Positions 3,042 through 25,607 of a stretch of DNA of 64,000 nt are shown one piece after another; within the stretch, counting starts at the first letter, position 1; the number at the start of each line of letters is the position of its first letter. A program made the position numbers and the translations under genes. The notes below the pieces were generated by a model. That model did no database searches. It worked only from the letters and a program-made list of their open reading frames with translations, and was not told the origin of the DNA. The stretch is from Acidobacteriota bacterium (GTDB lineage: Bacteria > Acidobacteriota > Terriglobia > Terriglobales > Acidobacteriaceae), in contig JABCZC010000023.1 of assembly GCA_013289875.1 (NCBI GenBank), positions 1-64,000 of the forward strand, given 5' to 3'.

Positions 3042-3073
3042 GAATGGCCTCCCACGGTCACCGCATCGTTTGA

Positions 3074-3098
3074 GTGTCCACCAAAAACAAGTGGACAC
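3074..3098. repeat. Inverted repeat GTGTCCAC/GTGGACAC
   Basis: GTGTCCAC at 3074-3081 and its exact complement GTGGACAC at 3091-3098 flank a 9-base A-rich loop, between the secreted-protein gene and the broken membrane-protein gene. It could be an operator or a remnant of a transposon end. Confidence 0.5.
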
Positions 3099-3687
3099 CT
3101 GTCCCTGCTGCTGATCAAGGCGGGTGAACCGACGGCCTTTGGAATCACCGTGGAACTGCTCATGCTGTCCAGTGCAGCCGCCATCGTCGGCGGACTGTAC
3201 ATTGGCGCGGAATCAACGGGGTGCGGGCGCCGATCCTTCGTCGAAGGTCGGCGTCTGGAACGGGGCGCTGGTGCTCGAACTGCTCGCCGTGGTGCCATTT
3301 TTAGCCGCGATACCGGCGCTCTTCCATGAACTGGCGGACAGCAAGCTGTTGCACGACATGGCGCCCGGCGCTATCCCTGTCGCGCTGGGTGCTTCCGAGC
3401 TGCTGCCGATGGTAGCCATCCTGCCGTTCATGCTGTATCAGCTTGCCGGCTTTGGCACCGTGCACATCGTCTTGCCGAAGTGGGTGAACCGGATCATCAA
3501 CATCGGCATTCTCTTCTTAATCACTGCCAGCTACATCGCCAACCGCGAGGGCGAGTACGCCTGGGAAAGGAGATTCGCCGGGCTACTGGTTGTCATCATG
3601 GTGATTCTCGTGTTCTATGGGGTTCTCAAGCTGAGACAGATGCAGGCGACCTACGACGCATTCTGCCCGCGCAAGCCTCCCAAGTAA
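3099..3687 (+). pseudogene. Frameshifted multi-pass membrane protein
   Basis: The downstream reading frame encodes four clear membrane helices: LVLELLAVVPFLAAIPALF, AIPVALGASELLPMVAILPF, INIGILFLITASYIAN and GLLVVIMVILVFYGVL. Just upstream, in another frame, lies one more hydrophobic helix (ELLMLSSAAAIVGGLYIGAE) that naturally precedes the first. The two frames join near 3210, consistent with a one-base insertion. The hydrophobic 5' frame has no start codon before the previous gene, so the gene also seems truncated. An in-frame start exists at 3124, but its first 40 residues are arginine- and cysteine-rich noise. I do not recognise the family. Confidence 0.5.
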
Positions 3688-3785
3688 CGACTCGATAGTC
3701 CTCGCTCTTCGTATCTGAATTTTGCTTATTAAGCCGACTATGGTCTCCCCTAAGAGTTGTGTTTTCTTCCAACCAATTTCTATTT

Positions 3786-4748
3786 CTACCTCAACGCAGT
3801 CCAGCTATTGTCAGGATTAAACTCTGTCATTGCCTTAGCCACACTGGTAGTGTCATTGCCGAGGTTTTTCGCGTAGACCACGCCGTCCTGATTGATGATG
3901 AACGTCTTGATGCCCGATTCGCTGTACGTTGCCGGGTACGCAACATAGGCGAATCCACCGGTCATCTTTCCATCGACGACATAAGACTTTGCACCACCCT
4001 TGGCTGCGGAACCCTGACTATCCAACCGCCGGAAGTAATAACCATAAAAGGGCTGGTGAGCGTCAGGCTTGACGGTAAATCCCTCTTCTGTCGCGAACGC
4101 CACCAGCGGCCCGAGTGGGCTGCGAGGAGCGCCTTGAGAAGACTCCCAGTACAATCCATTCTGCTGGCCGGTATCGCTGATGAATTTTTGCGCGTACTGT
4201 TTGACGCCGCCGTGCTTTTGCGAAAAGTACTGATCCTGGGAGTTCGCCAGAGCGGCGCAGACATCGATAGCGGCGAGCTCGTCGCGGCCGATGCGACGGG
4301 CCAGGATTTCTTCTTTGCCGGCTGCTGCATCGAAATACCACTGGCCGGCAGCGTTCTTCATCAAAGGAATGGGAAATGCCTGGTTTTCGGCGCCCACCAG
4401 CAGCAATTCGCTGCCATCGCCCAGCTTCCGCCACCGGCTCATCACCTCGTAGGCTTTGGCGAATCCATCAAAGGCCGCCTTATCTTCAGCAGCATCGCCA
4501 GTGGAGATGATCGCTGCCGATCCTGGACTGAAGATCGCCAGAATTGCATCGTGATTTTGCGATTTCGCGGCATCCGCGAGCGCCTTGCCGGCCTCGTCGG
4601 GCGAAGCGAAGGTTTTGGGTGCGGCCTGGGCGGACTCAGGATTTTCCTTCTTGTTGCAGGCTGTGAGAGAAAGAAGCAACACGAAACCCAGAGTCAGGTG
4701 TAGGAAGGATGAAACTAAACCGACGCGATTGCGAACTAGATCGAACAT
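3786..4748 (-). CDS. DUF2950 family lipoprotein
   Basis: The product is a 320-residue predicted lipoprotein with a lipobox (LLLSLTAC, Cys31) after a basic N-region and hydrophobic helix. The mature sequence matches DUF2950: an N-terminal FASPDEAGKALADAAKS segment, a central region around QYFSQKHGGVKQYAQKF and a glycine/tyrosine-rich end (GYYFRRLDSQG, YVAYPATYSESGIKTF). The start at 4748 is preferred over an ATG 27 bases upstream because GGAGG sits six bases before it. DUF2950 genes are commonly found next to DUF3300 genes, and here the DUF3300 gene is directly upstream on the same strand, 48 bases away. The molecular function is not known; the pairing suggests a shared role at the cell envelope. 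Confidence 0.9.
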   Translation of the reverse strand: MFDLVRNRVGLVSSFLHLTLGFVLLLSLTACNKKENPESAQAAPKTFASPDEAGKALADAAKSQNHDAILAIFSPGSAAIISTGDAAEDKAAFDGFAKAYEVMSRWRKLGDGSELLLVGAENQAFPIPLMKNAAGQWYFDAAAGKEEILARRIGRDELAAIDVCAALANSQDQYFSQKHGGVKQYAQKFISDTGQQNGLYWESSQGAPRSPLGPLVAFATEEGFTVKPDAHQPFYGYYFRRLDSQGSAAKGGAKSYVVDGKMTGGFAYVAYPATYSESGIKTFIINQDGVVYAKNLGNDTTSVAKAMTEFNPDNSWTALR

Positions 4749-4796
4749 TTTGATCCTCCAATGGGTGTTGTTCATTGGCTTCCCCGGCCTGGAAAC

Positions 4797-6212
4797 CTAA
4801 CGCCGGAATCCGCCGCCACCACCACGGAATCCACCGCCGCCCCATCCGCCGCCGCCACCACGGCTGCCCCAGCCCTGCGAGCTGGATGCCCGTGAGCCCC
4901 AGCCACCGCCGCCGGAGTCGCCAGAATGGCCGCCCCAGCCACTGAATGCCGACGAGCCGCCGCTATGCGAGTCCCAGCCTCCGCTACTGCCTCCCCAACC
5001 GTGAGCAGCATCAGAACCGGAGTCCGCCTTCTGCCAGCCGCTCCCTGTGTTTTTGTAGGCGTTGCCGTTCGCGGTCGCATACTTGTTCCCATTGGAGGTC
5101 GAGGCGCCGGCAACCGTTCCGTTGGCGTCCGAGTAATGCGCCGAGTTCACCGACGTGCCGTCCTTCGAGGCGTATGAGCTTCCATATTGCGCGCCATAGG
5201 TAGAAGTCTGATGGGTTTGGGCGTAGGCGCCGGTACTTGGGTTATAAGCTTGTCCTACCCTTTGGGTGCCATAGGCTGTCGAGGTTGACGCCCCGCGCGC
5301 ATAAGTCCCGGTGGAAGGGTTATAGCCAGAGGAGGCATGCGCGCTCCCGTATGGTCCATAGGCGGAAGCACTTGAACCGTAGTAGCCCCCATGCCAGGCG
5401 TCGTTCCCGTAGTAGGCTCCGCCGTGGTAGTACGCGCCGCCGCCGTACCAATTGCAACTCCAGCTGCTGTATCCCCAGCCACAGCAGCCGCCGCTCATCA
5501 TGGCTCCAATAGCTAGTCCCGCCCCGAAGGTAAGGACGCTTGCCGCCACAACATCTGCAGTGGTGTAGTTGGGAACGACATAGGGATATCCGTAAATGAC
5601 CGCAGGGTTGTACTGCGGGACATACACAACCTGTGGGTTGGTCGGCTGAATGACGATGGTCTGCGGCGACTGTTGCACGACGGTGATTTGCGCGCCGGAC
5701 TTCAGATTGCCCGCGGCCTTCGCCTTCGCGCGCAAGGTTTGAATCGCCGTCATCACGTCGGCCTGCTGATTGTGGTAGTCCTCACCCAACTGCGAGGTCC
5801 AGGAGAGGTTCTGGGCCATGTTGTTGAGGACGGACGGAAACTCGGTGAGCGCTTTGACACTTGGATCCCAGGTTTGCTTATCAACCGCCGTCGTGAGCGC
5901 GCTTCCCGTAAGGGTCTTGTTCTGCTGTATCCAATAGCTGGCGATGGCCACCTGGTCGGGAAAGGTCGCGGCACTGAGAATCTGCGCCACCAACGCATCC
6001 GGATAGAGAGCAATCGGCGCAACTAGGCTCTGCAGCTCATCGGCGGTCGCCGGCACGCCTTGGCCGGGATAGCTGGCGGTTGTTCCGCCTGCCGGCGGCG
6101 TTGCCGTACTCTGATAAGCCATGCTGGCCGTGGCCCCGGGGCCGATGGTGAAGACCAGAAGGATGCTTAGACCAAGGGAGATACTCTGCTTTACCCGTGC
6201 GGCGCCGTCCAT
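4797..6212 (-). CDS. DUF3300 domain protein with Gly/Ser/Tyr-rich tail
   Basis: The 471-residue protein has a signal peptide (LGLSILLVFTIGPGATA) and then the DUF3300 domain at about residues 50-230. The domain shows its typical LVAPIALYPDALVAQILSAA opening, the WDPSVKALTEFPSVL segment and the NPQVVYVPQYNPAVIYG strand. A short hydrophobic stretch (VVAASVLTFGAGLAIGAMM) follows, and then about 220 residues of low-complexity Gly-Tyr-Ser repeats with several Y-N-P-S-T-G copies, ending in GGGGGWGGGGFRGGG. The ATG at 6212 is chosen because AAGGAG lies just before it. The tail looks like an extracellular or wall-contacting disordered region. It is probably co-transcribed with the DUF2950 lipoprotein. 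Confidence 0.88.
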   Translation of the reverse strand: MDGAARVKQSISLGLSILLVFTIGPGATASMAYQSTATPPAGGTTASYPGQGVPATADELQSLVAPIALYPDALVAQILSAATFPDQVAIASYWIQQNKTLTGSALTTAVDKQTWDPSVKALTEFPSVLNNMAQNLSWTSQLGEDYHNQQADVMTAIQTLRAKAKAAGNLKSGAQITVVQQSPQTIVIQPTNPQVVYVPQYNPAVIYGYPYVVPNYTTADVVAASVLTFGAGLAIGAMMSGGCCGWGYSSWSCNWYGGGAYYHGGAYYGNDAWHGGYYGSSASAYGPYGSAHASSGYNPSTGTYARGASTSTAYGTQRVGQAYNPSTGAYAQTHQTSTYGAQYGSSYASKDGTSVNSAHYSDANGTVAGASTSNGNKYATANGNAYKNTGSGWQKADSGSDAAHGWGGSSGGWDSHSGGSSAFSGWGGHSGDSGGGGWGSRASSSQGWGSRGGGGGWGGGGFRGGGGGFRR

Positions 6213-6230
6213 ATGCTTTTCTCCTTGCAA

Positions 6231-7086
6231 TCTTTACTTCGCTGGCCAATTGGACTTGGCGAAGTTTCGGATTTTTTCTCGCGGGTCATGATAACTCTGC
6301 AAATGACCAGCAGTGAAGCCAATTCGCGCTTCGCATCGTCGTGATGGATCCGCATCACCAGTTTGCTGTAAGTGCGCACAAACTCCTTGTCCACCACCTC
6401 TAACAATTTTCCGAGATGTCAACATACGCCGTTGCATGGAAGGCTGGACACTAGCAGAATTCCCAGTTCGCCCGAGAATAACGACTAGGGCTTTGCCATC
6501 TCGTGCGAGGCGATGGCCTCGTTGGTTGAGTGTGTTAACCAATCTTTCCAGGACAGCGACCAACATCGACAAATAGAATGCACAGGTCTTGGCGGCCATC
6601 TCTACGCTACACGGAACACACAGACACATCAGCTTACAGTAACGGGCTGCCGAGGGCATGGACACTAGCAAAACTACCTGACCCAAAATTAAAAATGCGA
6701 AGTGTGCGCGGCCCTCATCCCGCAGACTTTTCGGGCGCCACCTAACGAAAGCAAGCTACCCGTGCCGAGTGAATGAAAAACGGCGTTTCAGTATGTTCGC
6801 GGATCACCGTTCATTGCGTCGGCAAGTTACCGAAATCCCGACTTCGCAGGCACAACGGGATGGTTTCCGGATAGCCCGTCAACCGACCGGAATCCAACCC
6901 GGCCAATCCAGGTCGTGAGCGCTATGGCCTGGTTACATCAACAATCCCCGGCTTATAATGCGGCATGCCCGTCGAGTTGCGCGGGTTGTAATTTTCGCCG
7001 CAGCGCGCCCGTTGGCTGAAAAGCCGCACGTTATCGCGCGCCGGTTCTGACAATGATGCAGCGATCGTGTTCGGGAGGACAGAACC
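6231..7086. other. Gap without a convincing gene
   Basis: About 850 bases lie between the DUF3300 promoter side and the propeller gene. Open frames here are short and arginine- or cysteine-rich, with no recognisable domain. GGACACTAGCA occurs twice (near 6451 and 6661). On the minus strand, a short tail read towards 6922 (GENYNPRNSTGMPHYKPG, then a stop) looks more protein-like than its surroundings and may be the 3' end of a lost gene. I cannot name it. Confidence 0.4.
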
Positions 7087-8064
7087 GTGTGGTGGATCAG
7101 CTATCGGGGTGAATCGGGGCACGGCGTCGACAACATCGGCGTCTTCGAGGACGACGGCTCCCCGCGCAAGGTACATCCGCTGCTTCTCGATCCCTCGCCG
7201 GCCGCGCATCCATTGCACATTGCGCGGGGCTTCGCATTGGTGGGCGACGACCTCTACATCGCGAATGCGTGGCGCAAGGATAGCCACATCGCGCTCTACC
7301 ACCGGCACGGCGACACCTTCCGCTTCAAGGAAGTGCTCGCGAAGACCGACCACGTTGCGGCAATGGTGCACCCCTTCGACGTGGAACTGGGGGACGATGG
7401 TCGCATCTACGTCTCCTGCCAGGACACCAACACCGTGGTGTCGCTTGTGCCGGAGACCCGCAAACCCGCACCGGTGGCCGTGCACCTCCGCAAGCACTAT
7501 CCCAAGGGGAATTTTCTCCCCGGCACGCTCGTCGCTTCCAGCCAGGGGAAACTTCCCGAGTACGGTGACCACACGCCGCTCGATGTGCCAGCACCGCTCG
7601 GCCTCAAGGTGGTGCTCGACAAGCGCGGCAAGCCACGGCACTCGGTGCGCGGCATCGTCGTGCACCGCAAGCATCTGTACGTGGCGGACGAAGCCGCCGA
7701 CGCCGTGAAAGTCTTCAATGTGCAATCCGGGGAGTTGATGGCCCGCATCACGGGGCGGGCGCTCAACGCGCCCGTGCACCTGATCCTGCACGGCGAGACG
7801 CTCTACATCGGTGCCTCAGGCAGCGGCAGCATCCTCGCGCTGGATCTGACGTCCACGCCGCCGAAGGGCGATCTCGAGGCGCGCGCGGTGATCGATGGAA
7901 AGCTCGACGCCCCCTCCGGCTTCGCCGTCGGCCCCGACGGCGATCTTTACGTGGCCGAGCGGAAGAAGCAGCGGGTGCGGCGCTTTTCCTCCAAGGGAAA
8001 GAAGAAGGGGACGTTCATTGATGACCTTCCGGACATGCCGGAGTTCCTTGTCTATGTTCCCTGA
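7087..8064 (+). CDS. NHL/SMP30-like beta-propeller protein, GC-rich
   Basis: The 325-residue protein shows repeated propeller-blade patterns: GDDLYIANAW, DDGRIYVSCQDTNTVVS, RKHLYVADEAADAVKVF, GETLYIGASGSGSILALD and GPDGDLYVAERKKQRVRRF. These resemble NHL or SMP30/gluconolactonase-like repeats, giving perhaps five or six blades. There is no signal peptide, so it may be cytoplasmic or lack its original N-terminus. The GTG start follows GGGAGGA at good spacing. Its base composition is visibly more GC-rich than the neighbours (GCGCGC, CTCGAC, CACGGC codons), which suggests acquisition from a high-GC donor. It may bind a ligand or a partner protein; the sequence shows no clear catalytic site. Confidence 0.7.
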   Translation: MWWISYRGESGHGVDNIGVFEDDGSPRKVHPLLLDPSPAAHPLHIARGFALVGDDLYIANAWRKDSHIALYHRHGDTFRFKEVLAKTDHVAAMVHPFDVELGDDGRIYVSCQDTNTVVSLVPETRKPAPVAVHLRKHYPKGNFLPGTLVASSQGKLPEYGDHTPLDVPAPLGLKVVLDKRGKPRHSVRGIVVHRKHLYVADEAADAVKVFNVQSGELMARITGRALNAPVHLILHGETLYIGASGSGSILALDLTSTPPKGDLEARAVIDGKLDAPSGFAVGPDGDLYVAERKKQRVRRFSSKGKKKGTFIDDLPDMPEFLVYVP

Positions 8065-8387
8065 GAAATCCCAAAGCGGTTACATTCTCTCCTCCTCGTA
8101 GGACGATGCCGACGACGGTACCGGTCTTTTGGCCGCTTCCACCCGGCCGGTTGGTCCCCCCCGCCGCCGGGATTATTCGGCCTGTTTCCGGGATTGCCCG
8201 GATTGTTGGGTCGATTGCCGGGATTGTTGTAACCCCCTCCGGGACGGTTTCCGTTGTAAGGAATAGCCCGCGGAGGACGATTGCCCGGGTTGTACTTCGG
8301 CTGATAATTGCCGCGGTAATAATTAATCCTGGAGTTGCTCCTTGGTACTTCCGCGATGAGGTCCTCTGTAGGTTTTTTCATCCGCAT
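8052..8387 (-). CDS. Small Asn/Pro/Gly-repeat protein (doubtful)
   Basis: A 111-residue minus-strand frame opens with MRMKKPTEDLIAEVPRSN and continues with repeats of the type N-R-P-N-N-P-G-N-P-G, ending in an Arg-rich tail that overlaps the 3' end of the propeller gene by 13 bases. The repeat is regular at protein level, which favours real or formerly real coding. The overlap and basic tail suggest a truncated or read-through end. No signal peptide is visible. It may be the surviving N-terminal part of a low-complexity surface protein. Confidence 0.3.
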   Translation of the reverse strand: MRMKKPTEDLIAEVPRSNSRINYYRGNYQPKYNPGNRPPRAIPYNGNRPGGGYNNPGNRPNNPGNPGNRPNNPGGGGDQPAGWKRPKDRYRRRHRPTRRRECNRFGISQGT

Positions 8388-8740
8388 AGTGTCGCTCTTT
8401 TCAGTGCGACCGTCTCTCTCTCACTTTTCGGTAAGTTGCCGGGCGGGAAGTCGCCGAGCTTAACTTACTGAGATCGCCGTTTTTCTGGAACCTTAAGCGG
8501 TCTTCTTTGCGGAGAAATTCTCAGACCAGAACGCGCACGCGGCCAGTTGCAGACCAACAATGCGATAACGGCTTGGCACATTTGCCAGCAAATTTCCAGC
8601 GGACATCTAGTAGGTTTGCTAGTTGTGTAAGGTCGTCTGAAGGCGGAAGCGTAGGGTGGATTTGCCGCCAAGTCCTATAACACGAATGTGTTTTGGCGCA
8701 AATCTCTTAGTTTCCAGTTCGAGTGAAAGCGAGGAAATTC
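8388..8740. other. Gap without a gene
   Basis: About 350 bases separate the small repeat ORF from the next gene. I see no coding signal, RNA gene or clear terminator. The last bases hold a usable ribosome-binding site (GCGAGGA) for the downstream broken gene. Confidence 0.4.
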
Positions 8741-9164
8741 ATGAAGAGCCTATGCAAGCTAGTTGTGAAGATGGGCTTGCTAACCCTGTTGTCCGCAATG
8801 CCTCTCTCGGCACAGATCGCGATCGGTCTGGAGCTCACCACATCCTTTCCGTTTTATGCAGGTAATACCAAGTTGCCGGCAGGCACCTACAAAGTGAGTC
8901 AGACCAACATTGATTCAACTATGTTGCTGATCGAGAGTACGAACAGTGTACATTTGGTCTATCTTGACATAACACCCGGAAACTGAGCAACCTCATCCTC
9001 AAAGCAGCGTCACTTTCCACAAATACGGAGGCGTCGACGATCTGAATCAGATTTGGGTCCAAGGCGAGAGCTCTGGGATGCAGGCTGACCCTACTAAGGC
9101 GGAAACGAAGGCGGCCGCGAGTTCAAGTGCGGAGGACCATTCAGTACCTGCCAAGAAGCGGTAA
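8741..9164 (+). pseudogene. Small secreted acidobacterial protein, split by a +1 frameshift
   Basis: The first part encodes a signal peptide (MGLLTLLSAMPLSAQ) and a beta-rich domain (LTTSFPFYAGNTKLPAGTYK), reading to a stop at about 8986. The next frame continues directly with EQPHPQSSVTFHKYGGVDDL, then NQIWVQGESSGMQ, an Ala/Lys-rich tail and a TAA at 9162. Removing one G from CCCGGAAAC near 8979 restores a single frame of about 140 residues. The layout (signal peptide, F-Y-A-G-N-T-K-L-P-A-G-T-Y-K, H-K-Y-G-G, charged tail) is that of a small secreted family I associate with Acidobacteriota; its role is not known. The start at 8741 follows GAGG. Confidence 0.65.
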
Positions 9165-9213
9165 CCAACGCCTACGGAGAGGCGAAAAAGCGTGAAGTAG
9201 CCCCAGCGGATTG

Positions 9214-9346
9214 CTACTGACCGGAGCATTCTGGTGATAGTTGCGAGAACGTCCGAGCTGGTGGTGGGGTAGTGTTCTGCGCCCCGGCAATCAAGGTGAC
9301 GAATGCGAATCCGGTTGGCCGCAAGGAACCTAAGTCTGTTCATCAT
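9214..9346 (-). pseudogene. Possible relic: start of a secreted-protein gene
   Basis: On the minus strand AAGGAGA precedes ATGATGAACAGACTTAGG. The first codons give MMNRLRFLAA. A shift of one base then gives GFAFVTLIAGAQNTTPPPAR, which completes a plausible signal peptide before a stop. The pattern (good ribosome-binding site, basic N-region, hydrophobic core split between two frames) suggests the decayed 5' end of a secreted-protein gene. Confidence 0.3.
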
Positions 9347-9911
9347 TGCCTGTTCTCCTTATAAAAGAGTTGAGTTACGTCGCGTCACCGCCAGGAGCAT
9401 GTGCTCTCAGCAGAACTAAAGATGACGTCATGCTACGTAAGCCGGCTTGGTAAAACTGGCAAAAATAGAAGGACCGAACCCAAAAAAAACTAGTAAAGCG
9501 CGTTTGCGAATAACTTGATAAGTGGAAGCGCGTTTGCCGGATACTCCATTTATTTCCGGCTTCGGCCCGCGAGCTAGCTCAAAACGTGACCTTCGCGGGA
9601 AAAGCAGGGATAATTTCCGCATTATCATCGGGTGCAAGTGAACTTGCGCTTTCCATGGGCTAGAGGGACAGGGTGCCCACAAGAAGGAGGGGAGGCCCGA
9701 GATCCTCGGCACTGTATTCCTAACTCCTAGTAATTTTTTTCTTGCCGCCTATGAATTCTGACAGTTCCCGAGAAATCTGGTCGAGGCCTAGGCTCGCGTC
9801 AGGAACTCGAGTTTTTTACCTCAGACCCATCAGTTCATTCGCGCTCGATTGATGGTACGCCGCTCATCTCGCGACAAATGGACCGTAGCTCGACCCCGCG
9901 GAGGCTTACGG
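9347..9911. other. Gap without a gene
   Basis: About 560 bases with only short, compositionally poor frames. The one structured item is a pair of dodecamer direct repeats at 9496 and 9526. AT-rich stretches (AAAAAAAC near 9482, ATTTTTTTC near 9735) may hold promoters, but none is convincing. Confidence 0.4.
9496..9537 (+). repeat. Direct repeat AAGCGCGTTTGC x2
   Basis: The dodecamer AAGCGCGTTTGC is repeated exactly at 9496-9507 and 9526-9537, 30 bases apart (about three helical turns), in a gene-free stretch. The spacing would suit a pair of regulator sites on one face of the DNA, but no gene start lies nearby. Confidence 0.45.
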
Positions 9912-10596
9912 ATGTCGGAGGCAACATCGAATGTCGAGTTCGCTCACCAGGTCCACGAGCAAGGCCATCATCACGGACCGCCGTCCGATCGCCGGGCTCA
10001 ATGGGTGGGGATCGCTGAGGCGGTGCTGCTCTCCATCGTGGCGGTGATGACGGCCTGGAGCGGCTACCAGGCTGCGAAGTGGGGTGCGCTCTCGGCCAAG
10101 CAGTATTCGCAGGTGTCGCGCACCACCGTGATGTCTCAAGAGAAGGCGACGCTGGCGGGCCAGGACCGCCTTTACGACATCGTAACCTTCGACGCCTGGG
10201 TCGCCGCAACGACGGCAGGCAACAAAAAACTCGCTGCATTCTATGAACGTCGATTCCGCCCCGAATATGATGCCGCGTTCCTGGCAGAAGCTTGACCCAT
10301 TTAACAATCCGTCTGCGCCGTCCGGCCCGATCTTCATGCCGGAGTACACGAACGCAAACGAACAAGCGTCTGCAAAGCTTGCCGAGGAGGCCAGAGGCTA
10401 CTTCGAGAAAGGCGTAAGCACACGGGAGACCGGTGACAGTTATGTGAAGGTAACGGTCTTCCTGGCGACAGTTCTGCTCCTTACGGCACTCAGTCAACGC
10501 TTCGAATCATTCGGGCCGCGAGCCACAATAGTGGCGGTCGCGTCCCTTCTGCTGATCATCAGCACCTACTGGATCCTAACTCTTCCTCGGGCGTAA
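9912..10596 (+). pseudogene. Two-helix membrane protein gene broken by a small deletion
   Basis: The first frame encodes a His-rich N-terminus, a membrane helix (GIAEAVLLSIVAVMTAWSGYQ), AKWG and a long helical segment to RFRPEYDAAFL, then stops near 10294. The next frame resumes at WQKLDPFNNPSAPSGPIFMP, continues through EARGYFEKGVSTRETGDSYV and has two more membrane helices before TLPRA. Together this is the usual layout of a bacterial membrane protein family with R-F-R-P-E-F and P-x-G-P-x-Y-M-P-x-Y motifs. Restoring five bases (a lost CCTGG copy at CTGGCAG) would join the frames as FLAWQKLDPF. The start at 9912 follows GGAGG. The next gene begins four bases after the end, so they were probably one operon. 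Confidence 0.7.
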
Positions 10597-10599
10597 CCC

Positions 10600-11112
10600 A
10601 TGTGGCTTCCCACCCTCCTCGCGAATTACCAAATCATTCTAGGCTTCCTCGTTGCCGACCCCATGAACTGGCGCGCCGACTGGGCATGGGGCTTGCCGCT
10701 GATCGTGCTGAACGTGATCATCCATGCCCTAGGTCTCGGGCTCATAAGCCAGAAAGTAGTCCGCGTTACCAGCGCCACGATTGCGCGCCATCTCATAATC
10801 TACAAGTTCGTGCTGGTAGTGGGCTCCGCTACCTTATTGGGCACTATCCTGCACGGAATTGAGGCAGCCATCTGGGCTGCCGCCTATCGGCTTCTAGGCG
10901 CTCTGCCCGACAACAAGTCCGCGATGCTCTATTCTTTGAACGCGATGACCAGTTACGGGCATACGGATCTAGCTCTGGCGCGGCACTGGCAGCTTATGGG
11001 AGCAATAGAGGCACTGAACGGGTGGCTGCTGTTCGGGCTGACCACCGCTTTTCTGTTCGGCGTGCTCGAGAGAGTCTGGTCGTCACTTGGCAGGGGAGGG
11101 CACCATAAGTGA
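10600..11112 (+). CDS. Ion-channel-like membrane protein
   Basis: The 170-residue protein has about four hydrophobic helices: IVLNVIIHALGLGLI, LIIYKFVLVVGSATLLGTIL, an amphipathic re-entrant stretch around LYSLNAMTSYGH, and GAIEALNGWLLFGLTTAFLF. The combination of a helix, a pore-like loop with T-S-Y-G-H and a last helix with GWLLFGLTTAFLF resembles two-helix ion-channel (Ion_trans_2-type) proteins. The loop is not a canonical T-V-G-Y-G potassium filter, so selectivity is unknown. It is probably translated from the same transcript as the broken gene upstream, four bases away. Alternative: an uncharacterised integral membrane protein. Confidence 0.65.
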   Translation: MWLPTLLANYQIILGFLVADPMNWRADWAWGLPLIVLNVIIHALGLGLISQKVVRVTSATIARHLIIYKFVLVVGSATLLGTILHGIEAAIWAAAYRLLGALPDNKSAMLYSLNAMTSYGHTDLALARHWQLMGAIEALNGWLLFGLTTAFLFGVLERVWSSLGRGGHHK

Positions 11113-18536: not shown

Positions 18537-19715
18537 TCATCGTCCCGTTTTCGCATTGAGGACAGCCATTGCATCCACGACCTGCGAGGGTGCGAAATGC
18601 GCATATCGCATGGTCGAGGCGATTGAAGCATGCCCAGCAGCTTCCTGGACCACCTTCAGGTGCACTCCGGCCTGCACCAACCGTGAGCAGAAAGTATGCC
18701 GGTTATCGTGCCACCGGTAACTTTTGATCTTTGCTTCGCCCAGGACGGCCTGCCACCACTTCTTGTTGTCCGCTTTGGCGAAGACGACATCCTTCGGTGA
18801 ATTGTTCGGCTGACTGCTGGATCGATCGCGGCGCTCGAGATCGAGGTCGTGCAACTGTTTCAGCGCCGCTTCAACATCGTCGATCATGTAGGCATTGCGC
18901 GGCTTGCCGTTCTTCGTTTTCGTGAGGCGCATGATGCGCCTCTCGAAATCCACGTCGCCCCATCGCAGGTTGTACTGCTCGGAGCGGCGCATGCCGGACT
19001 TCAGGGAGACCTCAAACTCCAAGAGCCGGTGGATCGCCTGCTTCCGAAGTTCCGGGTGATTGACGGGATCGTGCGCATCGATGTTCCGCTGCAGCACTCG
19101 CCGCAGCCGGCTCTCTTCTTCATCGGTCAAGAAGCGCTCCACCCCATTTCCCACGTCACGCAAGGGGACATCCACCGCAGGATTCGCATCCACCAGATCC
19201 CTGCGTTTCCCATGCTTGTAGACCATGGAAAACGTCCCGCGTATCTTGTTGATCGTCGCGTTGGCCAGATGCCTGTCTTCCTGAATATCGTCGAGCCAAT
19301 CCTCAATCTCCGACGATTTCAGCTTTGCCGCGTCGCGCTCGCCAAACATCGCCCTGATTTCGGCAATTCTCTTCGGCGGATTGATCTGGTCCCGATATTC
19401 CCCAGGGTGCGCTTTCACATATCTTTCGAACTCATCGCAGAGCTTTCCGACCGTGATCGCGTGGGGATCTCCCAGCACGGCCACCTCTGCGGTGGTCAGC
19501 ACCGGGCGCTTGGCCGTCGTTGGTAGTACGCCCTCCCCTGTGCGTTTGATCGTCCTCGCCTTCTCGACCCAGGCTATCGCATCGGCTCGCCCCCTTGGAC
19601 CCAGTCCGAAGCTCTTCCGGACCAGCTTCCCGTTAACCCGGATTCGGGCAGACCAGATGTCGTTGCCGGGCACTCTTTCATATACTCCGCTTACGGGCGC
19701 CGGTTTGCGCGCCAT
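18537..19715 (-). CDS. int: Tyrosine site-specific integrase
   Basis: The 392-residue protein is a phage/ICE-type tyrosine recombinase that inserts and excises the element. Residues 90-180 are the SAM-like core-binding domain. The catalytic domain follows, with R243 in SGMRRSEQYNLRW, Lys in LTKTKNGKPR (about 267-271), H336-x-x-R339 in RWHDNRHTFCSRL, H362 in AAGHAS and the nucleophile Y371 in TMRYAH. All six catalytic positions are present, so it is probably active. The N-terminal 60 residues resemble an arm-binding domain. The start codon overlaps one of four copies of the nonamer TGTATCACA, and the tRNA-Lys fragment lies 240 bases upstream, the usual place for an attachment site. Confidence 0.93.
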   Translation of the reverse strand: MARKPAPVSGVYERVPGNDIWSARIRVNGKLVRKSFGLGPRGRADAIAWVEKARTIKRTGEGVLPTTAKRPVLTTAEVAVLGDPHAITVGKLCDEFERYVKAHPGEYRDQINPPKRIAEIRAMFGERDAAKLKSSEIEDWLDDIQEDRHLANATINKIRGTFSMVYKHGKRRDLVDANPAVDVPLRDVGNGVERFLTDEEESRLRRVLQRNIDAHDPVNHPELRKQAIHRLLEFEVSLKSGMRRSEQYNLRWGDVDFERRIMRLTKTKNGKPRNAYMIDDVEAALKQLHDLDLERRDRSSSQPNNSPKDVVFAKADNKKWWQAVLGEAKIKSYRWHDNRHTFCSRLVQAGVHLKVVQEAAGHASIASTMRYAHFAPSQVVDAMAVLNAKTGR

Positions 19716-19829: not shown

Positions 19830-20229
19830 CCGAGGCCGTATTCCCTGCAACTGCATGCAGCGGTCTGACTCCAAAAGGTGAACAAAAACATGTATGGATA
19901 CTGGCGATTTGCAGAATTGTGCAATGCCGTACGGTTCGCTGCAGATCCATCATGAACGCCCTTTTAAGGCGTGGGTCCTGGGTTCGAGCCCCAGCGAGCT
20001 CACCATTCAAACTCTCACCTTGGGCTCATTCAGCTTATCCTGTCGGCTGTCGGCATTCTCAGTTTTTCGCCATCAATGAAGTGAGTGCCGTCTGCCAGGT
20101 GAGCGGCGGCATCCAGTAATATAAACCGCGAGGTGAGCGACCTCTTCCGTCGAGTTCCGTCGAGCCGCGATACAAGACTGCTGAAGGCTGATCCAGACAG
20201 TGCGGCGGACCTTTGGAGGCAAGGCAGTC
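19830..20229. other. Gap around the attachment site
   Basis: About 400 bases between the nonamer cluster and the YkuD-GT gene. Apart from the tRNA-Lys 3' half I see no gene. The last 30 bases carry GGAGG at 20213 upstream of the next start. Confidence 0.4.
19956..20005 (+). other. attR-like site: 3' half of tRNA-Lys(TTT)
   Basis: The sequence folds as the 3' half of a tRNA: anticodon stem ACGCC/GGCGT (19956-19960, 19968-19972) with loop CTTTTAA and anticodon TTT, a five-base variable loop, T-arm CTGGG-TTCGAGC-CCCAG (19978-19994), acceptor strand CGAGCTC, discriminator A and encoded CCA. The D-arm and the 5' acceptor strand GAGCTCG are missing upstream. A tRNA 3' end next to a tyrosine integrase is the classic footprint of integration into a tRNA gene. 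It is not a functional tRNA as it stands. Confidence 0.8.
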
Positions 20230-21636
20230 ATGCCCACGATTGACATCTTTCTCCCATCGGACCGCAATCGCGTTGGACAGCTCTTTCTCAGGGATGGCGA
20301 TGGTCGCGAACTGCGTGGGCCTTGGTACGTGTGCGGCAGGGCGAATGATTTCGCAGCGAGCGAACACGGAAACCCTACGCGCTCGCCGCTCCATCTCTAC
20401 GGGGACACGCCGACCGGCGACTATCGAGTAAGGGGCATTTTAGCGACTGGCGGCGGAACGGCTTACGACTCGAAAACGTTCGGCCAATCCGGCATGATCG
20501 TTCTTGAACCGGTGCGCGGCCAGGCGGCGATTGCCAACAAGAATGGCCGCCAAGTGCTGGTGATTCATGCCGGCACTCCAAATCCTGCCGACAAACTCCT
20601 CTACGCGACTAACGGCTCGGTGAGGATGTACGAGCACGAATTACGCGAATTGATTAAAGCCGTACGGGGCCAGTCGTCCGTGACTTGCAGGATCAGCGAA
20701 ACGAACGGGACCGTGTCGCTCCCCGTAACCCTCGATCCGGCTTACGATCAAGGCGATCCGCCGCTGGCTGCGAATCAGATGATGGCGGGCGGGGCAAAGT
20801 TGATCGTATGTGCGGCGTCTCATTCCGCGGGAGTGCGTCACCGCTATCGCATCATGCAACAGGTGAGGGGCTTTGCCGACCATGCAGGCTACTCCGTGCG
20901 CATGCTTTGGGGAATCACTTCCGGCGTCTCCTTCTGCCGCCACGACGAGTTGTTCGACGCTGTGCCCGGCGTTGAGATAGAGAATGTTTCGTACGAAGAA
21001 ATGACGGCGATCTGGCGTTGCTCGAAGACCAGCACGATGAGCCACAAAGGTGAGACACTTCGCATGCTTCAGCCCAGTGAAGAGCCCGTCGACAGATTCT
21101 TTTCGTGGGATTGCGATACGGCTGAGGCTCTCGGAAAGCTGGCTACCGGCAACATCACCCCGCTCCATGCGAAGATTTCCCCGGCCCTGCAGGCGCAACT
21201 CGATGGGTACATGCAGGCACACTCCATGCAGAACCGACTCGGAATTCGAGTACGGGTGACCGAACGGGCGACCGACCTGCGTAAGCCCCGCCGCGTGAAA
21301 GACGAGCTGGACGCAGTCCTTAGTTCCCTTCGCCGAATCTCACCGCAAATGCCTTTGTTCATTGCCACGGACTCGGAGTACATACAGGAAGGGTTGTTAT
21401 CCCATTTCATCGACGCGCGATTTCTTCCCAAGAGATTTGAGCAGAGGGAGCAGACGGGCGGGTATGTTCAACGTACGGACAAGGACGCGATGCTCACGTT
21501 TGTCAAGGAAGTCAGCTGCCTTTGCGCCTGCAAAAACATCATTAACTATGGAGGCTTCTTGAATGAAACCTCGGTGCGATACAAGTTCATCAGGGAACCG
21601 TACGATGGACTGATGGACGCCGTCAGGAAGCCTTGA
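20230..21636 (+). CDS. Fusion: YkuD-like fold (Cys replaced by Ser) with fucosyltransferase-like domain
   Basis: The 468-residue product has two parts. Residues 1-140 look like an L,D-transpeptidase (YkuD) fold: GQLFLRDGDGRE, GDTPTGDYRV, VLVIHAG with H113 and TNGSVRM at 127-133. In YkuD enzymes the last motif is S/T-H-G-C-x-R with catalytic Cys; here Ser130 stands in its place and N128 replaces the His, so peptide crosslinking is doubtful. Residues 185-460 resemble the GT-B-like fucosyltransferase group (NodZ/FUT8-type): GIRVRVTERATD, MPLFIATDSEYIQEGL and a final SCLCACKNIINYGG. The domain assignments are by eye. No signal peptide is seen. The next gene overlaps the stop codon. A GTG 30 bases upstream is an alternative start. 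Confidence 0.6.
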   Translation: MPTIDIFLPSDRNRVGQLFLRDGDGRELRGPWYVCGRANDFAASEHGNPTRSPLHLYGDTPTGDYRVRGILATGGGTAYDSKTFGQSGMIVLEPVRGQAAIANKNGRQVLVIHAGTPNPADKLLYATNGSVRMYEHELRELIKAVRGQSSVTCRISETNGTVSLPVTLDPAYDQGDPPLAANQMMAGGAKLIVCAASHSAGVRHRYRIMQQVRGFADHAGYSVRMLWGITSGVSFCRHDELFDAVPGVEIENVSYEEMTAIWRCSKTSTMSHKGETLRMLQPSEEPVDRFFSWDCDTAEALGKLATGNITPLHAKISPALQAQLDGYMQAHSMQNRLGIRVRVTERATDLRKPRRVKDELDAVLSSLRRISPQMPLFIATDSEYIQEGLLSHFIDARFLPKRFEQREQTGGYVQRTDKDAMLTFVKEVSCLCACKNIINYGGFLNETSVRYKFIREPYDGLMDAVRKP

Positions 21637-24600
21637 GCGTGAGAGACGAGCTCTCAAGCGAGCTGTATCCGGCCTTGCCATGGGCGAGGATTCGACTCGT
21701 CATCGTCGCGCTTGTTGTTGCGCTCTCTCTTGGTCAGGCTGAAGCCGCGCCTGCGCCACCGCAGAGGAGTCCGGCTCTTTCAGTCTCCTACAAGATGCCC
21801 GCTGACGGTGATTTGACGCTTGGCCTATATGACAAGAACGGGCAGCTGCTCAGATGGCTGACGCAGGGTGAATTCCGCTACGCGGGGGAAAACAAGGAGA
21901 CTTGGGACGGTCTTGACCAATACGGCAATCCCGTCCCCGCCGGCACCTATACCCTGAAGGCCATCTATCACACGCCCATCTCGACCGACTACAAAATGAG
22001 CGTCGCCAATCCCGGCAACCCGCCGTGGCCGACGCCGGATGATAAGGGCGACTGGCTCAGTGACGAGTACGATCCTCAGGCCGTGGTAACCGACGGCAAG
22101 TGGGTATACCTGGCCGCGCCAGGCGACGAACTGGGTTACTCCATCATCGCGGTCGATGAAACCGGACAACGGCAGTGGGGTATCCGGAGCACCTCGGACG
22201 GACGCGCCATCTCGCTGGCACTGAACGGCAACTACCTCTACGCTGTTTATTCCGGCGCCGAGCTAACCGATAACACCCGTGTGTACACGGGCAAAAACGG
22301 CATCGGCAAGGCCATCCTTATGTGTTTCGACAAAAGGACCGGTAAGCCGACGCAATTTACCCTGAAGCAGCCCAGCCAGATCGTCGCCACTTGGCCTTAT
22401 CGCAACGACTACATGTGGCTCGACGAGCTCCGCAACAACCGCTCGTTCACTCCGGCGGTCTACGGCGGCCAGCCCCGTTACTTTGCCGCCGACGTCAGCG
22501 AAACCACCAACGTTCTGGGGCTCGCGGCGGTTGGCGGCAAAGTCTATGTCTCGCTGAACTACGACAACAAATTGCTGGTGGTTGACGCAGCTACCGGCAA
22601 ACCCACCGGCGAGGAGATCCGCCTCGACGCTCCGGTGGGTCTCAGTCCGCTCGACACCCATACCATCCTCGCTGTCAGCGGCAAGCAGGTGGTGAAGGTG
22701 GATCTGGGCAGCAAGGCCGTCACGCCGCTGATTACCTCCAATCTCGTTGCGCCTGATAGCGTCAGCACGGACAGGGCGGGCAACATCTACGTCAGCGATT
22801 GGGGCACGTCCTTCCAGGTCAAAGTCTTCTCCTCTTCAGGAAAATTCCTTCGCGCTATCGGTAAGGAAGGCGGACGTCCCTGGGTTGGAAAATGGGACCC
22901 CAGCGGCATGCTCGTGCCTCGCGGCGTTGCCGTGACCGATGACGGCAGGCTCTGGGTCGCCGAAGATGACGGCTCACCCAAGCGCATCAGCGTCTGGAAT
23001 GCGCAGAGCGGCTCATTCCTCAAGGAATATATCGGGCCGACTCCTTACGGCGGCGGAACCCTCTTCTGGATCAACCCAAAGGATCGGACGCTGGTCCACG
23101 CGGAAGACACCGCGTTCAAGGCCGATTATGACCGCAAGACCTACGCCCCGCTGGCCATCGATTATCGCCGCCAGAATCGCAACGATCCATTCACTCCCAA
23201 CGGCCACGATCTCGATGTGCGCCAGGGTCGGATTCTTTACCATGATGGCCGCGAGTATCTCTTCAGCAGCGACAAGATCAACGTCATTCTGCAACGCAAA
23301 GGGGACACCTACCGGCCCGTGGCTGCATTTGGCAATATCCCCGCGTCGTTCGGCAACGATGGAACCTCAATTCTCGTTTGGGACGGTTTCGGTTATCACC
23401 CTTATAAGGGCTTCTTTCCCGATTTTTTCGCCGGCCATGTCGGCAACAACTACAGCTGGACCGACATGAACGGTGACAACCTGGTCCAGCCGGATGAGAT
23501 GCACTGGGTCAAGGCCAGCGGAAATTATCAGCCGGGATCGCAGCCTAATCTGGGCGCGAGTTGGGGTTTAGACGTCTCCCCCGACTGGAGTTATTTCTCC
23601 GCCGGCACTTTTCACGACCAGACCGCCGTCTTTCGCCTTGACATCAAGGGCTGGACCACGGATGGCGCGCCCATTTACGACATGGCCGACGCCCGGCCGA
23701 TCATATCCCTCCCCCCTAAACATACGATTACCTCCCTTCATGTCACCGATGACAGAAAGCTGATCGTTGTCTTTAACTTTGAAGGCATGGGGCAATGGAA
23801 CGATAGCACCGACGCGATTGCCTGCTACACCCTCGACGGGAAAAAACTCTGGGCGATCGCGCAGCCGAAGCAACTGCCGGGCATGGAAGTCTACGCCAAT
23901 GGCGCGCAATACGACTTCAATTTGCCAAAGCTCGGAGACGTCTTCGGTACCTGGCTCTACCATGGCAGCCAACGGCCCTTCCTCATCACGACCGACGGCC
24001 TTTACGTCGGAACCATGCTCGACCTCACGTGGCTGGGCCCGACTTCACTCCGGGGCGAATCGGCACTTTATTACTACCAGGCTCCTGATGGCACGCCCTA
24101 CGTCATCAACGGCGCGAACCAGGCTGAGCACATCTTCCAGATCAAAGGATTGGATCGGGGAGGCCGCTTCGATGGCACCTTCGAGTTAACCGAAAACGGT
24201 GTGAAGCTGGCCCAGGCTCAGCACGCGATTCCTAAACCAGTAGTTCCGCCTAATCCAGTGCTGGCCGTGACCTGGCTGGACAAGCCGCCGGTGATCGACG
24301 GCGATCTCTCCGACTGGAAACTCAACAATGGCGCTTCTCTCAAGGGCGGCAACGGCAAAAGCGCCGACGTAGCCCTGGGCCGCGACGCGCATAACCTCTA
24401 CCTTGCCTACAGGGTCCACGAGTCCACTCCAGCCATGCGTAACGCAGGCTCCGACTGGCGCACACTCTTTATCAGCGGCGATTGCGTCGACCTCATGCTC
24501 CAGACCGATCCGAAGGCTGAGCCGCACCGCCGCACCTCTGCGCCGGGCGACGAACGCCTGCTCCTCAGCATGTTTCAAGACAAGCCGGTCGCGGTTCTTT

Positions 24601-25607
24601 ACCGGCCGACGGCGCCAGGGACAACGTCGCCGGTCAATCTTGCCTCCGAGCGCATCGACCAGGTTATCCGGCTCGATGCGGCCAGGGTTGCGATCACGCG
24701 CGATGCTGCCCACGGATTCTACGCCGTGGAAGCCTCCGTGCCGTTCACGGCCCTCAATCTCGACCCGAAGACGACCGACGATTTGCGCGGCGACATGGGG
24801 GTCATCTACGCCGATGAAACGGGTACGAGCCGTTCTCTGCGGCTCTATTACTACAACCAGGACACATCGATCATTGACGATCTCGCGACCGAAGCGAGCC
24901 TCCAGCCCAACCAGTGGGGTAAGATCGCCATGCCTCTCGGTTCCAATCTGATTCGGAATGGAAGCTTTGAAGATCCCTTCGTCGATTCGGCGCAATCCAT
25001 CGACAAGGGTTGGTACATCACCCGTGCTGAGAATGGAAACGATGCCGTGATAACCACCGAGTCTTCCTACAGCGGCCATCAATCGCTGTTGCTAAAGACA
25101 TCCGTGCCGGTGAGCTTTCCGCCCGAGGCCTACAATTATCCCGACTACGGGGCTTTCCTCAAATCCGCGAATGGGGGCAAAGGATACGGCAACGTCGAGG
25201 TTCGCCAGCGGGTCGTGGTAACGCCCGGCCATCAATACAGCTTCCGCCTGCAGTTCCGCAGCGAGGATAACCCTGGCTGGGGAGAGCGGAAAAACCCGGG
25301 ACATCCGCGCGGCTTCGTCTCCCTTGCCAACTGGATTGACTGGATCTGCCCGCCTCCCAGCCCCAATCGGGGCAAGCGAACGCCGCTCGCTAGCCCATAC
25401 AATACCAACTCCATTTATGGGCCCGTGCCCGATTGGGTTACGGTTTACGATCCGCAGACCCTCGCCCCGACGGCCCCCTACACTGCCCCCGAAGGGTGTA
25501 GCGCGGCCGACATCGTCTTCTTTATGCGAAACGCGACCGACAGCCTGCCCAAATTCTTCGTCGACAATGTCGAGTTCGTCGACGTCACTCCTGGCATGGC
25601 GAGGTGA
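21633..25607 (+). CDS. Large secreted multidomain protein (FlgD-like Ig, beta-propeller, CBM9-like)
   Basis: The 1324-residue protein has a signal peptide ending QAEAAPAPP. Residues 45-110 resemble a FlgD-type Ig domain (GLYDKNGQLLRWL, ETWDGLDQYGNPVPAGTYTL). Residues 130-830 hold many propeller blades (GGKVYVSLNYDNKLLVVD, AGNIYVSDWGTSFQVKVF). Residues about 885-1100 resemble a CBM9-type module (PPVIDGDLSDWKL, FYAVEASVPFTALNL). A jelly-roll-like end follows (NLIRNGSFEDPFVD, SYSGHQSLLLKT, FFVDNVEFVDV). It looks like a surface or secreted carbohydrate-binding protein. The TTG start overlaps the upstream stop codon (TTGA), so translation is probably coupled to the YkuD-GT gene. GTG at 21639 is an alternative start. 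Confidence 0.75.
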   Translation: MSVRDELSSELYPALPWARIRLVIVALVVALSLGQAEAAPAPPQRSPALSVSYKMPADGDLTLGLYDKNGQLLRWLTQGEFRYAGENKETWDGLDQYGNPVPAGTYTLKAIYHTPISTDYKMSVANPGNPPWPTPDDKGDWLSDEYDPQAVVTDGKWVYLAAPGDELGYSIIAVDETGQRQWGIRSTSDGRAISLALNGNYLYAVYSGAELTDNTRVYTGKNGIGKAILMCFDKRTGKPTQFTLKQPSQIVATWPYRNDYMWLDELRNNRSFTPAVYGGQPRYFAADVSETTNVLGLAAVGGKVYVSLNYDNKLLVVDAATGKPTGEEIRLDAPVGLSPLDTHTILAVSGKQVVKVDLGSKAVTPLITSNLVAPDSVSTDRAGNIYVSDWGTSFQVKVFSSSGKFLRAIGKEGGRPWVGKWDPSGMLVPRGVAVTDDGRLWVAEDDGSPKRISVWNAQSGSFLKEYIGPTPYGGGTLFWINPKDRTLVHAEDTAFKADYDRKTYAPLAIDYRRQNRNDPFTPNGHDLDVRQGRILYHDGREYLFSSDKINVILQRKGDTYRPVAAFGNIPASFGNDGTSILVWDGFGYHPYKGFFPDFFAGHVGNNYSWTDMNGDNLVQPDEMHWVKASGNYQPGSQPNLGASWGLDVSPDWSYFSAGTFHDQTAVFRLDIKGWTTDGAPIYDMADARPIISLPPKHTITSLHVTDDRKLIVVFNFEGMGQWNDSTDAIACYTLDGKKLWAIAQPKQLPGMEVYANGAQYDFNLPKLGDVFGTWLYHGSQRPFLITTDGLYVGTMLDLTWLGPTSLRGESALYYYQAPDGTPYVINGANQAEHIFQIKGLDRGGRFDGTFELTENGVKLAQAQHAIPKPVVPPNPVLAVTWLDKPPVIDGDLSDWKLNNGASLKGGNGKSADVALGRDAHNLYLAYRVHESTPAMRNAGSDWRTLFISGDCVDLMLQTDPKAEPHRRTSAPGDERLLLSMFQDKPVAVLYRPTAPGTTSPVNLASERIDQVIRLDAARVAITRDAAHGFYAVEASVPFTALNLDPKTTDDLRGDMGVIYADETGTSRSLRLYYYNQDTSIIDDLATEASLQPNQWGKIAMPLGSNLIRNGSFEDPFVDSAQSIDKGWYITRAENGNDAVITTESSYSGHQSLLLKTSVPVSFPPEAYNYPDYGAFLKSANGGKGYGNVEVRQRVVVTPGHQYSFRLQFRSEDNPGWGERKNPGHPRGFVSLANWIDWICPPPSPNRGKRTPLASPYNTNSIYGPVPDWVTVYDPQTLAPTAPYTAPEGCSAADIVFFMRNATDSLPKFFVDNVEFVDVTPGMAR

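Follow-up and report, generated by a model that had tools for sequence, protein, structure and literature searches.

The L,D-transpeptidases of the YkuD family share the motif HXX14-17(S/T)HGCh, as given in PMC9638812. Their fold is also found in Tlde1, a type VI effector with L,D-carboxypeptidase and D-amino-acid exchange activity. A third described relative of the protein studied here, NodZ, is a nodulation fucosyltransferase, which we take to belong to glycosyltransferase class GT23 and in which the Arg of the HVRHGNGED block is presumably catalytic. Here we describe a gene that joins a YkuD-fold domain, whose catalytic Cys is replaced by Ser, to a glycosyltransferase-like half. It lies in a 64,000-nucleotide stretch of DNA from an Acidobacteriota bacterium, the whole of which we call the window. 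A preliminary description knew of no reported system combining YkuD with a glycosyltransferase, and among the best-ranked matches in the open literature, at the level of titles and the starts of abstracts, we met none, nor any Ser-type YkuD family with exchangeable cargos. Our favored reading, to which we assign a probability of roughly 40%, is that the N half is a non-transpeptidase YkuD binding module that docks exchangeable cargos, which in this protein is a NodZ-like glycosyltransferase.

The gene encodes a protein of 468 amino acids (20230-21633, plus strand; 20230-21636 through the stop codon), and retranslation returned the coordinates, strand and frame of the earlier reading. The gene, its parts and its immediate surroundings are as follows.

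18537-19715, minus strand: tyrosine integrase on the far side of the att fragment (Pfam Phage_integrase, 2.3e-26)
19957-20011, plus strand: att-like edge of a mobile element, 55 bp in common with the 3′ end of a tRNA-Lys
20215-20219, plus strand: GGAGG, the likely ribosome-binding site for ATG 20230, ten bases before the ATG
20230-20724, plus strand: N half, residues 1-165, a YkuD/L,D-transpeptidase-fold domain with Ser replacing the catalytic Cys (Pfam, AlphaFold2, Foldseek, alignments)
20566-20568, plus strand: codon of His113, the catalytic His equivalent (His in 11 of 11 rows of alignment A5)
20608-20628, plus strand: TNGSVRM block, residues 127-133, with the Ser130 codon at 20617-20619 (translation, alignment)
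20725-20790, plus strand: linker between the halves, of low model confidence (AlphaFold2 model)
20791-21633, plus strand: C half, residues 188-468, glycosyltransferase-like and found alone in the same-genus genome G006 (L004)
21091-21549, plus strand: NodZ-matched stretch, residues 288-440 (hhalign)
21633-25607, plus strand: next gene, a giant of 1324 amino acids with an N-terminal hydrophobic stretch, FlgD Ig-like and NHL repeats

Translation most likely starts at ATG 20230, since GGAGG lies upstream and the mechanically called open reading frames of three copies in a related genome, G447, begin at a matching Met. The GC content of the gene (0.56-0.60) is similar to that of neighboring genes, and a promoter and terminator scan of 20000-21800 found nothing. 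The gene is positioned just outside a mobile element, and its reported location right outside an att site is upheld by the 55 bp at 19957-20011, which recur without a difference elsewhere in the genome (G000:C41), where they make up the final 49 bases of an intact tRNA-Lys and the six that follow it. On the other side, the giant starts either at TTG 21633, which overlaps the TGA stop of the window gene, or at GTG 21639, and the junction is accordingly a four-base overlap or a two-base gap. The giant (21633-25607) looks secreted. At E 1e-20 or better it was found in two of 61 genomes, its own and G006, where the match sits on a contig of 3984 bp; G447 was outside the 61. The suggestion that our gene is coupled to this secreted giant fits the close spacing at the window, but in G447 the glycosyltransferase fusion is followed by a tyrosinase gene instead.

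The YkuD layout proposed for the N half agrees with structure prediction. Residues 58-146 match Pfam YkuD (PF03734), with 14.8 bits when the entire protein is scanned and 17.2-17.4 bits when the N half is, in either case below the curated cut-off of 23.4 bits, and a PHROGs scan of the N half gave no match. Alignment A6 has 11 members, comprising the window domain, one Rhizobium row and nine viral-contig rows; all 11 matched PF03734 when scanned singly (best E 6.7e-7) and three also matched Tlde1_dom (PF10908), which was unmatched by the window member, PF03734 being its sole Pfam match in that scan. An AlphaFold2 model of the N half, built from the 11 A6 rows, has a mean block pLDDT of about 91 over residues 1-160 and a pTM of 0.84, with lower pLDDT (73 and 81) in blocks 111-120 and 121-130; these contain the loop before Ser130, where the model is least certain. 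When this model was compared to the PDB with Foldseek, Tlde1a took ranks 1 and 2 (7uo3, E 2.7e-4; 7uo8, E 2.6e-3) with a TM-score of about 0.5, and L,D-transpeptidases took ranks 3 and 4 (E 0.023 and 0.046). Among predicted viral proteins, the top named matches include tail-lysozyme, GH19 and endolysin proteins. The full-length model, in which the C half is poor, returned no YkuD structure in the best 50 of 1267 Foldseek matches and no match of any kind at E 0.001. The N-half model and its Foldseek matches thus point to a YkuD/L,D-transpeptidase fold and not to an unrelated one. Because the first strand of the modeled fold starts at residue 3, there appears to be no room for a signal peptide, in line with the absence noted earlier.

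Within this predicted fold, the active-site block reads T127-N128-G129-S130-V131-R132-M133. Ser130 stands at the Cys position and Asn128 at the motif His, and His113, Thr127, Gly129 and Arg132 are retained; the catalytic Cys of HXX14-17(S/T)HGCh is missing from the window protein (T127 N128 G129 S130). Translation and alignment confirm the replacement of the catalytic Cys by Ser that had been reported, and in alignment A5 this position is Cys in every row but that of the window (10 of 11). Arg132 and Thr127 are invariant across the eight rows of alignment A8. As judged from the alignments, the pocket of the Ser-type proteins is not uniformly kept: the catalytic-site His is retained in five of the six and is Gln in the tyrosinase fusion of G447 (G447_tyr), and the protein of another genome, G650, lacks the GDTPTG region and the Gly preceding Ser. 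Two of the Ser-type proteins are only 27% and 32% identical to the window domain, yet Ser is present in both.

The substitution is also found in the nearest relatives. A local mutation or annotation artefact is ruled out, because the three closest homologues, all in G447, also carry Ser and have no internal stops; a normal GCxR motif was not encountered among them. The full window protein matched two of 100 near genomes, its own and G006, and had no match among phages. Across genome sets that overlap, the N half found matches in four of 396 phylum members, the full-length alignment in four of 398 genomes of the family and the eight-row N-domain alignment in six of 399 of the class; a scan of the order of G289 found four among 119. 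The matches in G239, from the phylum set, and in G1127 and G1079, from the order set, were dropped, their translations being without the YkuD motif. Two scans of genome contigs yielded one locus altogether, a Rhizobium; a viral-contig scan yielded nine loci, and a plasmid search five records, one Rhizobium and four Paenibacillus, from which the Rhizobium record and one of the four Paenibacillus records were used. At the sensitivities used, the N domain is rare in this group. On the Rhizobium plasmid pRlX1 (CP140857.1; L007, L005), a stand-alone YkuD gene lies downstream of very large genes, one of them of 11.4 kb; L007:51-2375, 2412-6011 and 6056-10654 gave no significant Pfam match, the last 2.3 kb of that gene being covered.

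Six proteins in four genomes carry the domain N-terminally before another part. In addition to the window protein, these are a G447 glycosyltransferase fusion with a NodZ-like cargo (L015:3935-5440, minus strand), a G447 tyrosinase fusion (L014:6169-9069, minus strand; tyrosinase PF00264, 2e-30), a G447 protein that has an Ig-like part, recognized by eye, and 35 GDSS motifs (L014:15683-18241, plus strand), a G289 protein that continues into a tail with seven HDR motifs (L016:6822-7634, minus strand), and a G650 fusion with a pesticin-type lysozyme (PF16754, 1.8e-14; L036:4955-6184, plus strand). The GDSS motifs, 40 in the tyrosinase protein and 35 in the Ig-like protein, form long repeats between the YkuD-like domain and the tyrosinase or Ig-like part, and both genes belong to a cluster of glycosylation type. 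The layout observed, a constant N-terminal domain with differing C-terminal parts, is like that of polymorphic toxins. The pairing of YkuD with a glycosyltransferase that was first noticed at the window is real, but it does not stand alone and belongs with several other fusions built on this Ser-type domain.

The distribution of Ser and Cys follows this architecture. Ser occupies the Cys position in all six of the N-terminal cargo- or tail-bearing proteins and Cys does so in 18 of 18 other tree rows, although these counts are of sequences rather than independent events and the Ser-type sample comes from four genomes only. The 18 comprise two tips of RHS-type proteins and 16 stand-alone rows, namely nine viral-contig, two Rhizobium, one Paenibacillus and four genes (G1038, G942, G802, G934), with some of the start codons assigned by hand. 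The best tree has one change to Ser, with weak support (42/81), and one change is found in 36% of 200 bootstrap trees; in the tree built without the trait column, Ser needs two changes. On these trees, Ser would have arisen once or twice, not six times.

Both halves look to be under constraint, with synonymous change per site far exceeding non-synonymous change in each. Between the window N half and that of the Ig-like protein (G447_ig), dN is 0.22 and dS 1.10; in the remaining four pairs dS is at least 2.3 or could not be computed, hence saturated or nearly so, and the ratios are rough. Among the G447 copies, the N halves of the tyrosinase and Ig-like paralogues are 68% identical to that of the window, and the N half of the glycosyltransferase fusion, which alone of the three has the C half in common with the window (56% identity), is 59% identical to it. 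The window has the residue of the two paralogues and not that of the G447 glycosyltransferase fusion at 24 sites, and at one site the opposite holds. Uniting both glycosyltransferase fusions in the tree costs 8.66 log-likelihood units, with a nominal AU p of 0.036 that is marginal for a test picked after tree inspection. Since the kinships of the N and C halves disagree weakly, these comparisons suggest, without proving, that the two halves have been exchanged by recombination.

The C half had been likened to NodZ/FUT8-type glycosyltransferases, and the likeness to NodZ stands for its second subdomain only. A C-half profile of three rows (window, G447 and G006) was aligned to NodZ by hhalign with a probability of 91.8 and an E of 7.4e-7 over 139 columns at 26% identity. 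NodZ scored 52.6, whereas none of 60 column-shuffled NodZ profiles exceeded 19.9, reversed NodZ reached 16.4 and a YkuD profile 12.6; Arg342 is aligned with the Arg of the NodZ HVRHGNGED block. The first subdomain alone scored 16.5 against NodZ, within the shuffle range (highest 17.3). No Pfam or NCBIfam glycosyltransferase model scored above cut-off for the C half, Pfam NodZ matched the G447 fusion only (E 0.01, below cut-off), and a PF05830 search of the window genome was empty. In a PDB sequence search, three other chains, from a PTS protein, an RNase HI and a dynein, ranked above NodZ, which came fourth (E 0.46). The RNase H, fructose PTS and dynein matches are short and weak, though some outrank NodZ, and we prefer NodZ because the shuffle control separates it. 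In the full-length model the C half has a pLDDT mostly below 60, too low to support or oppose a GT-B fold. Profile comparison indicates that the C half is NodZ-like in its putative sugar-nucleotide subdomain.

The two halves are separable, since the C half exists alone in G006. The window genome also has a broken second copy of the C half (L037:6266-6553; G000:C103), which resembles the window version more closely than it does that of G006. Genes near the broken copy were seen, by eye, around the solo copy of G006 as well (L018), and because these neighboring genes are common to both, the two copies probably represent the same locus. The C half had no match in plasmids and viral contigs, and weak matches of 41-47 residues were found in G111, G146, G319, G366 and G387.

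The genes that accompany the relatives point to envelope or peptide modification and not to ordinary wall cross-linking. Around and between the three G447 copies are GT9-like, GT4-like and weakly GT8-like (below cut-off) genes and a DXD-type sugar transferase, together with a sugar epimerase, a radical SAM gene, an Asp/Asn hydroxylase and a second tyrosinase. The G650 fusion is surrounded by DsbA-like genes, glycosyltransferases, a methyltransferase and a sulfotransferase, the last three kinds downstream, and the G289 relative adjoins an HxsB-like gene (TIGR03978, 283.7 bits, below the 370 cut-off) and a pair of DUF483-like genes, of which one exceeds its cut-off. At the G650 locus (G650:C72; L036:1210-6184), two DsbA-like thioredoxin genes lie upstream of the YkuD-pesticin fusion, one directly before it. 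The G289 locus (L016:3231-7634), where the YkuD-HDR protein is accompanied by the HxsB-like gene, of radical SAM/SPASM type, and the DUF483-like pair, has the appearance of a locus for peptide modification. Elsewhere, RHS-type proteins, again named by eye, end in a C-terminal Cys-type YkuD tip (L060:49-2103 in G289:C41; L057 in G1052:C530), and in G289:C41 further RHS-like pieces and small genes follow L060. As for delivery, a search for the T6SS sheath protein VipB was positive in two of five carrier genomes (G000, the window genome, and G006) and negative in G447, G650 and G289, and a search for a phage-type sheath was positive in G006 and G289 and negative in the other three (G000, G447 and G650), in assemblies that are 74-99% complete. 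Whichever export route might serve these proteins, a contractile system as their common delivery route is unsupported, as no single one was seen in all carriers.

In the reading we favor, the N half would have given up L,D-transpeptidase chemistry, through the changes of Cys to Ser and of the motif His to Asn, and would have kept its fold, along with the upstream His and the Thr/Arg framework in which the catalytic residues once sat; its most likely role is that of a binding module. Because the same Ser-type domain is joined to different cargos in related bacteria, it probably takes each cargo to one common partner. This partner may be a peptidoglycan stem or a D-amino-acid-containing peptide, which are ligands of active relatives, or alternatively another protein of the same locus, and the NodZ-like glycosyltransferase would add a sugar to whatever the N half holds. 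If this is right, the fold of a wall cross-linking enzyme has been turned into a shared binding part marked by a conserved Cys-to-Ser change, its fusions with a NodZ-like transferase, a tyrosinase, a lysozyme and repeat proteins are of kinds that we did not meet in the literature matches considered, and the genes described here form a small set of intact genes for asking whether Ser-type YkuD domains bind, cleave or carry. A bolder extension, which we regard as doubtful, makes the Ser-for-Cys YkuD domain a universal docking tag of a so far undescribed modular envelope system, borne by enzymes (NodZ-like transferase, tyrosinase, lysozyme) and repeat substrates (GDSS, HDR) alike, so that both could meet on one scaffold, with recombination swapping the cargo.

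Alternatively, Ser130 might be a working nucleophile, with the N half as a Ser-dependent hydrolase or transferase on a YkuD scaffold and the glycosyltransferase half acting on the same substrate. The position holds Ser, not a random residue, in all six proteins despite the 27% and 32% identity of two of them to the window, and the invariance of Arg132 and Thr127 in the eight A8 rows and the His of five of six Ser-type rows argue in the same direction. Ser-dependent turnover of beta-lactams by a YafK-family YkuD protein is reported in PMC13400389, where the Ser used is another one and the Cys is still present. With Gln replacing the His in one Ser-type protein and the loop Gly missing from another, we consider a nucleophilic Ser unlikely. 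The N half might also be a decaying L,D-transpeptidase leftover stuck to an unrelated glycosyltransferase gene. The loss of the catalytic Cys and motif His and the broken C-half copy at G000:C103 would fit such decay, but synonymous change far outweighs non-synonymous change in both halves (dN well below dS, with dS mostly saturated), Ser is present in all six proteins, and one genome holds three stop-free copies; conservation therefore largely refutes this explanation, which we hold to be highly implausible.

Other explanations start from the cargos. The proteins might be polymorphic effectors acting between bacteria, with a common N part and exchangeable C-terminal toxins, in which case the window protein would be a toxic glycosyltransferase. 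The pesticin-type lysozyme among the cargos is consistent with this, as are the relatives at the C-terminal tips of RHS-type proteins in G289 and G1052, the T6SS effector as nearest solved fold, the Tlde1_dom matches of three of 11 A6 members and the listing of L,D-peptidase domains among polymorphic toxins in PMC3482391. However, VipB was not found in G447, G650 or G289, nor a phage-type sheath in G000, G447 or G650, at the assembly completeness given above; PADLOC gave zero matches for the four proteins scanned, including the window protein; no immunity gene was noticed among the neighbors; and a tyrosinase and serine-rich repeats would be odd warheads. Moreover, the constant part of polymorphic toxins usually bears a trafficking motif, and none was recognized in the constant part here, which leaves an effector role rather improbable in our view. 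A further possibility is a system for modifying peptides or proteins in which the Ser-type YkuD domain would serve as a folded leader or for recognition, the repeats behind it (HDR, GDSS) would be the part that is modified, and the fused enzymes would act in maturation. G289, with seven HDR motifs behind the domain and adjoining HxsB-like and DUF483-like genes, and G447, with 40 and 35 GDSS motifs and glycosyltransferases, a radical SAM gene and an Asp/Asn hydroxylase nearby, both lend themselves to this interpretation. It is weakened by the G289 repeat protein, which matches no NCBIfam model at E 0.1 in a collection that presumably includes the HxsA model, by the restriction of each repeat type to one genome and by the lack of repeats in the window protein; as the Pfam scan at the window covered three neighbors, a modifying enzyme may still lie near it. 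We judge a leader role very unlikely.

The protein resembles each of the closest described systems in part. In the PDB, the fold of the N half is most like that of Tlde1 (PF10908; 7uo3, 7uo8), but the TM-score is only about 0.5, the window member has no PF10908 match, and VipB was not found in three of five carriers. The catalytic residues of Tlde1a are Cys131, His121 and His129 according to PMC9638812, compared with Ser130 and Asn128 in the window protein. The fold, the upstream His and the (S/T)xGxxR frame are common to the window protein and the YkuD L,D-transpeptidases (PF03734), from which it differs by the absence of the catalytic Cys, the sub-cut-off score and the glycosyltransferase-like fusion. 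By profile comparison, NodZ (PF05830) appears homologous to the second subdomain of the C half, whereas the first subdomain is not detectably related to it. The His-Xaa-Ser (Hxs) radical SAM systems resemble the G289 locus in the HxsB-like gene beside the relative, but G289 has HDR instead of HxS repeats and a repeat protein without an NCBIfam match, and an HxsB-like neighbor was not seen at the window locus in the Pfam scan of three neighbors. The stand-alone phage, plasmid and chromosomal YkuD proteins (L019-L028, P0005, P0006, G1038, G942, G802, G934), whose A5 rows are 28-38% identical to it over the domain, mostly have no N-terminal extension, as in the window protein; unlike it, all 16 keep Cys and have no C-terminal cargo that we could see. 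In the RHS-type proteins (L060, L057), a related YkuD domain forms a C-terminal tip with Cys, whereas the window protein carries its domain N-terminally and with Ser.
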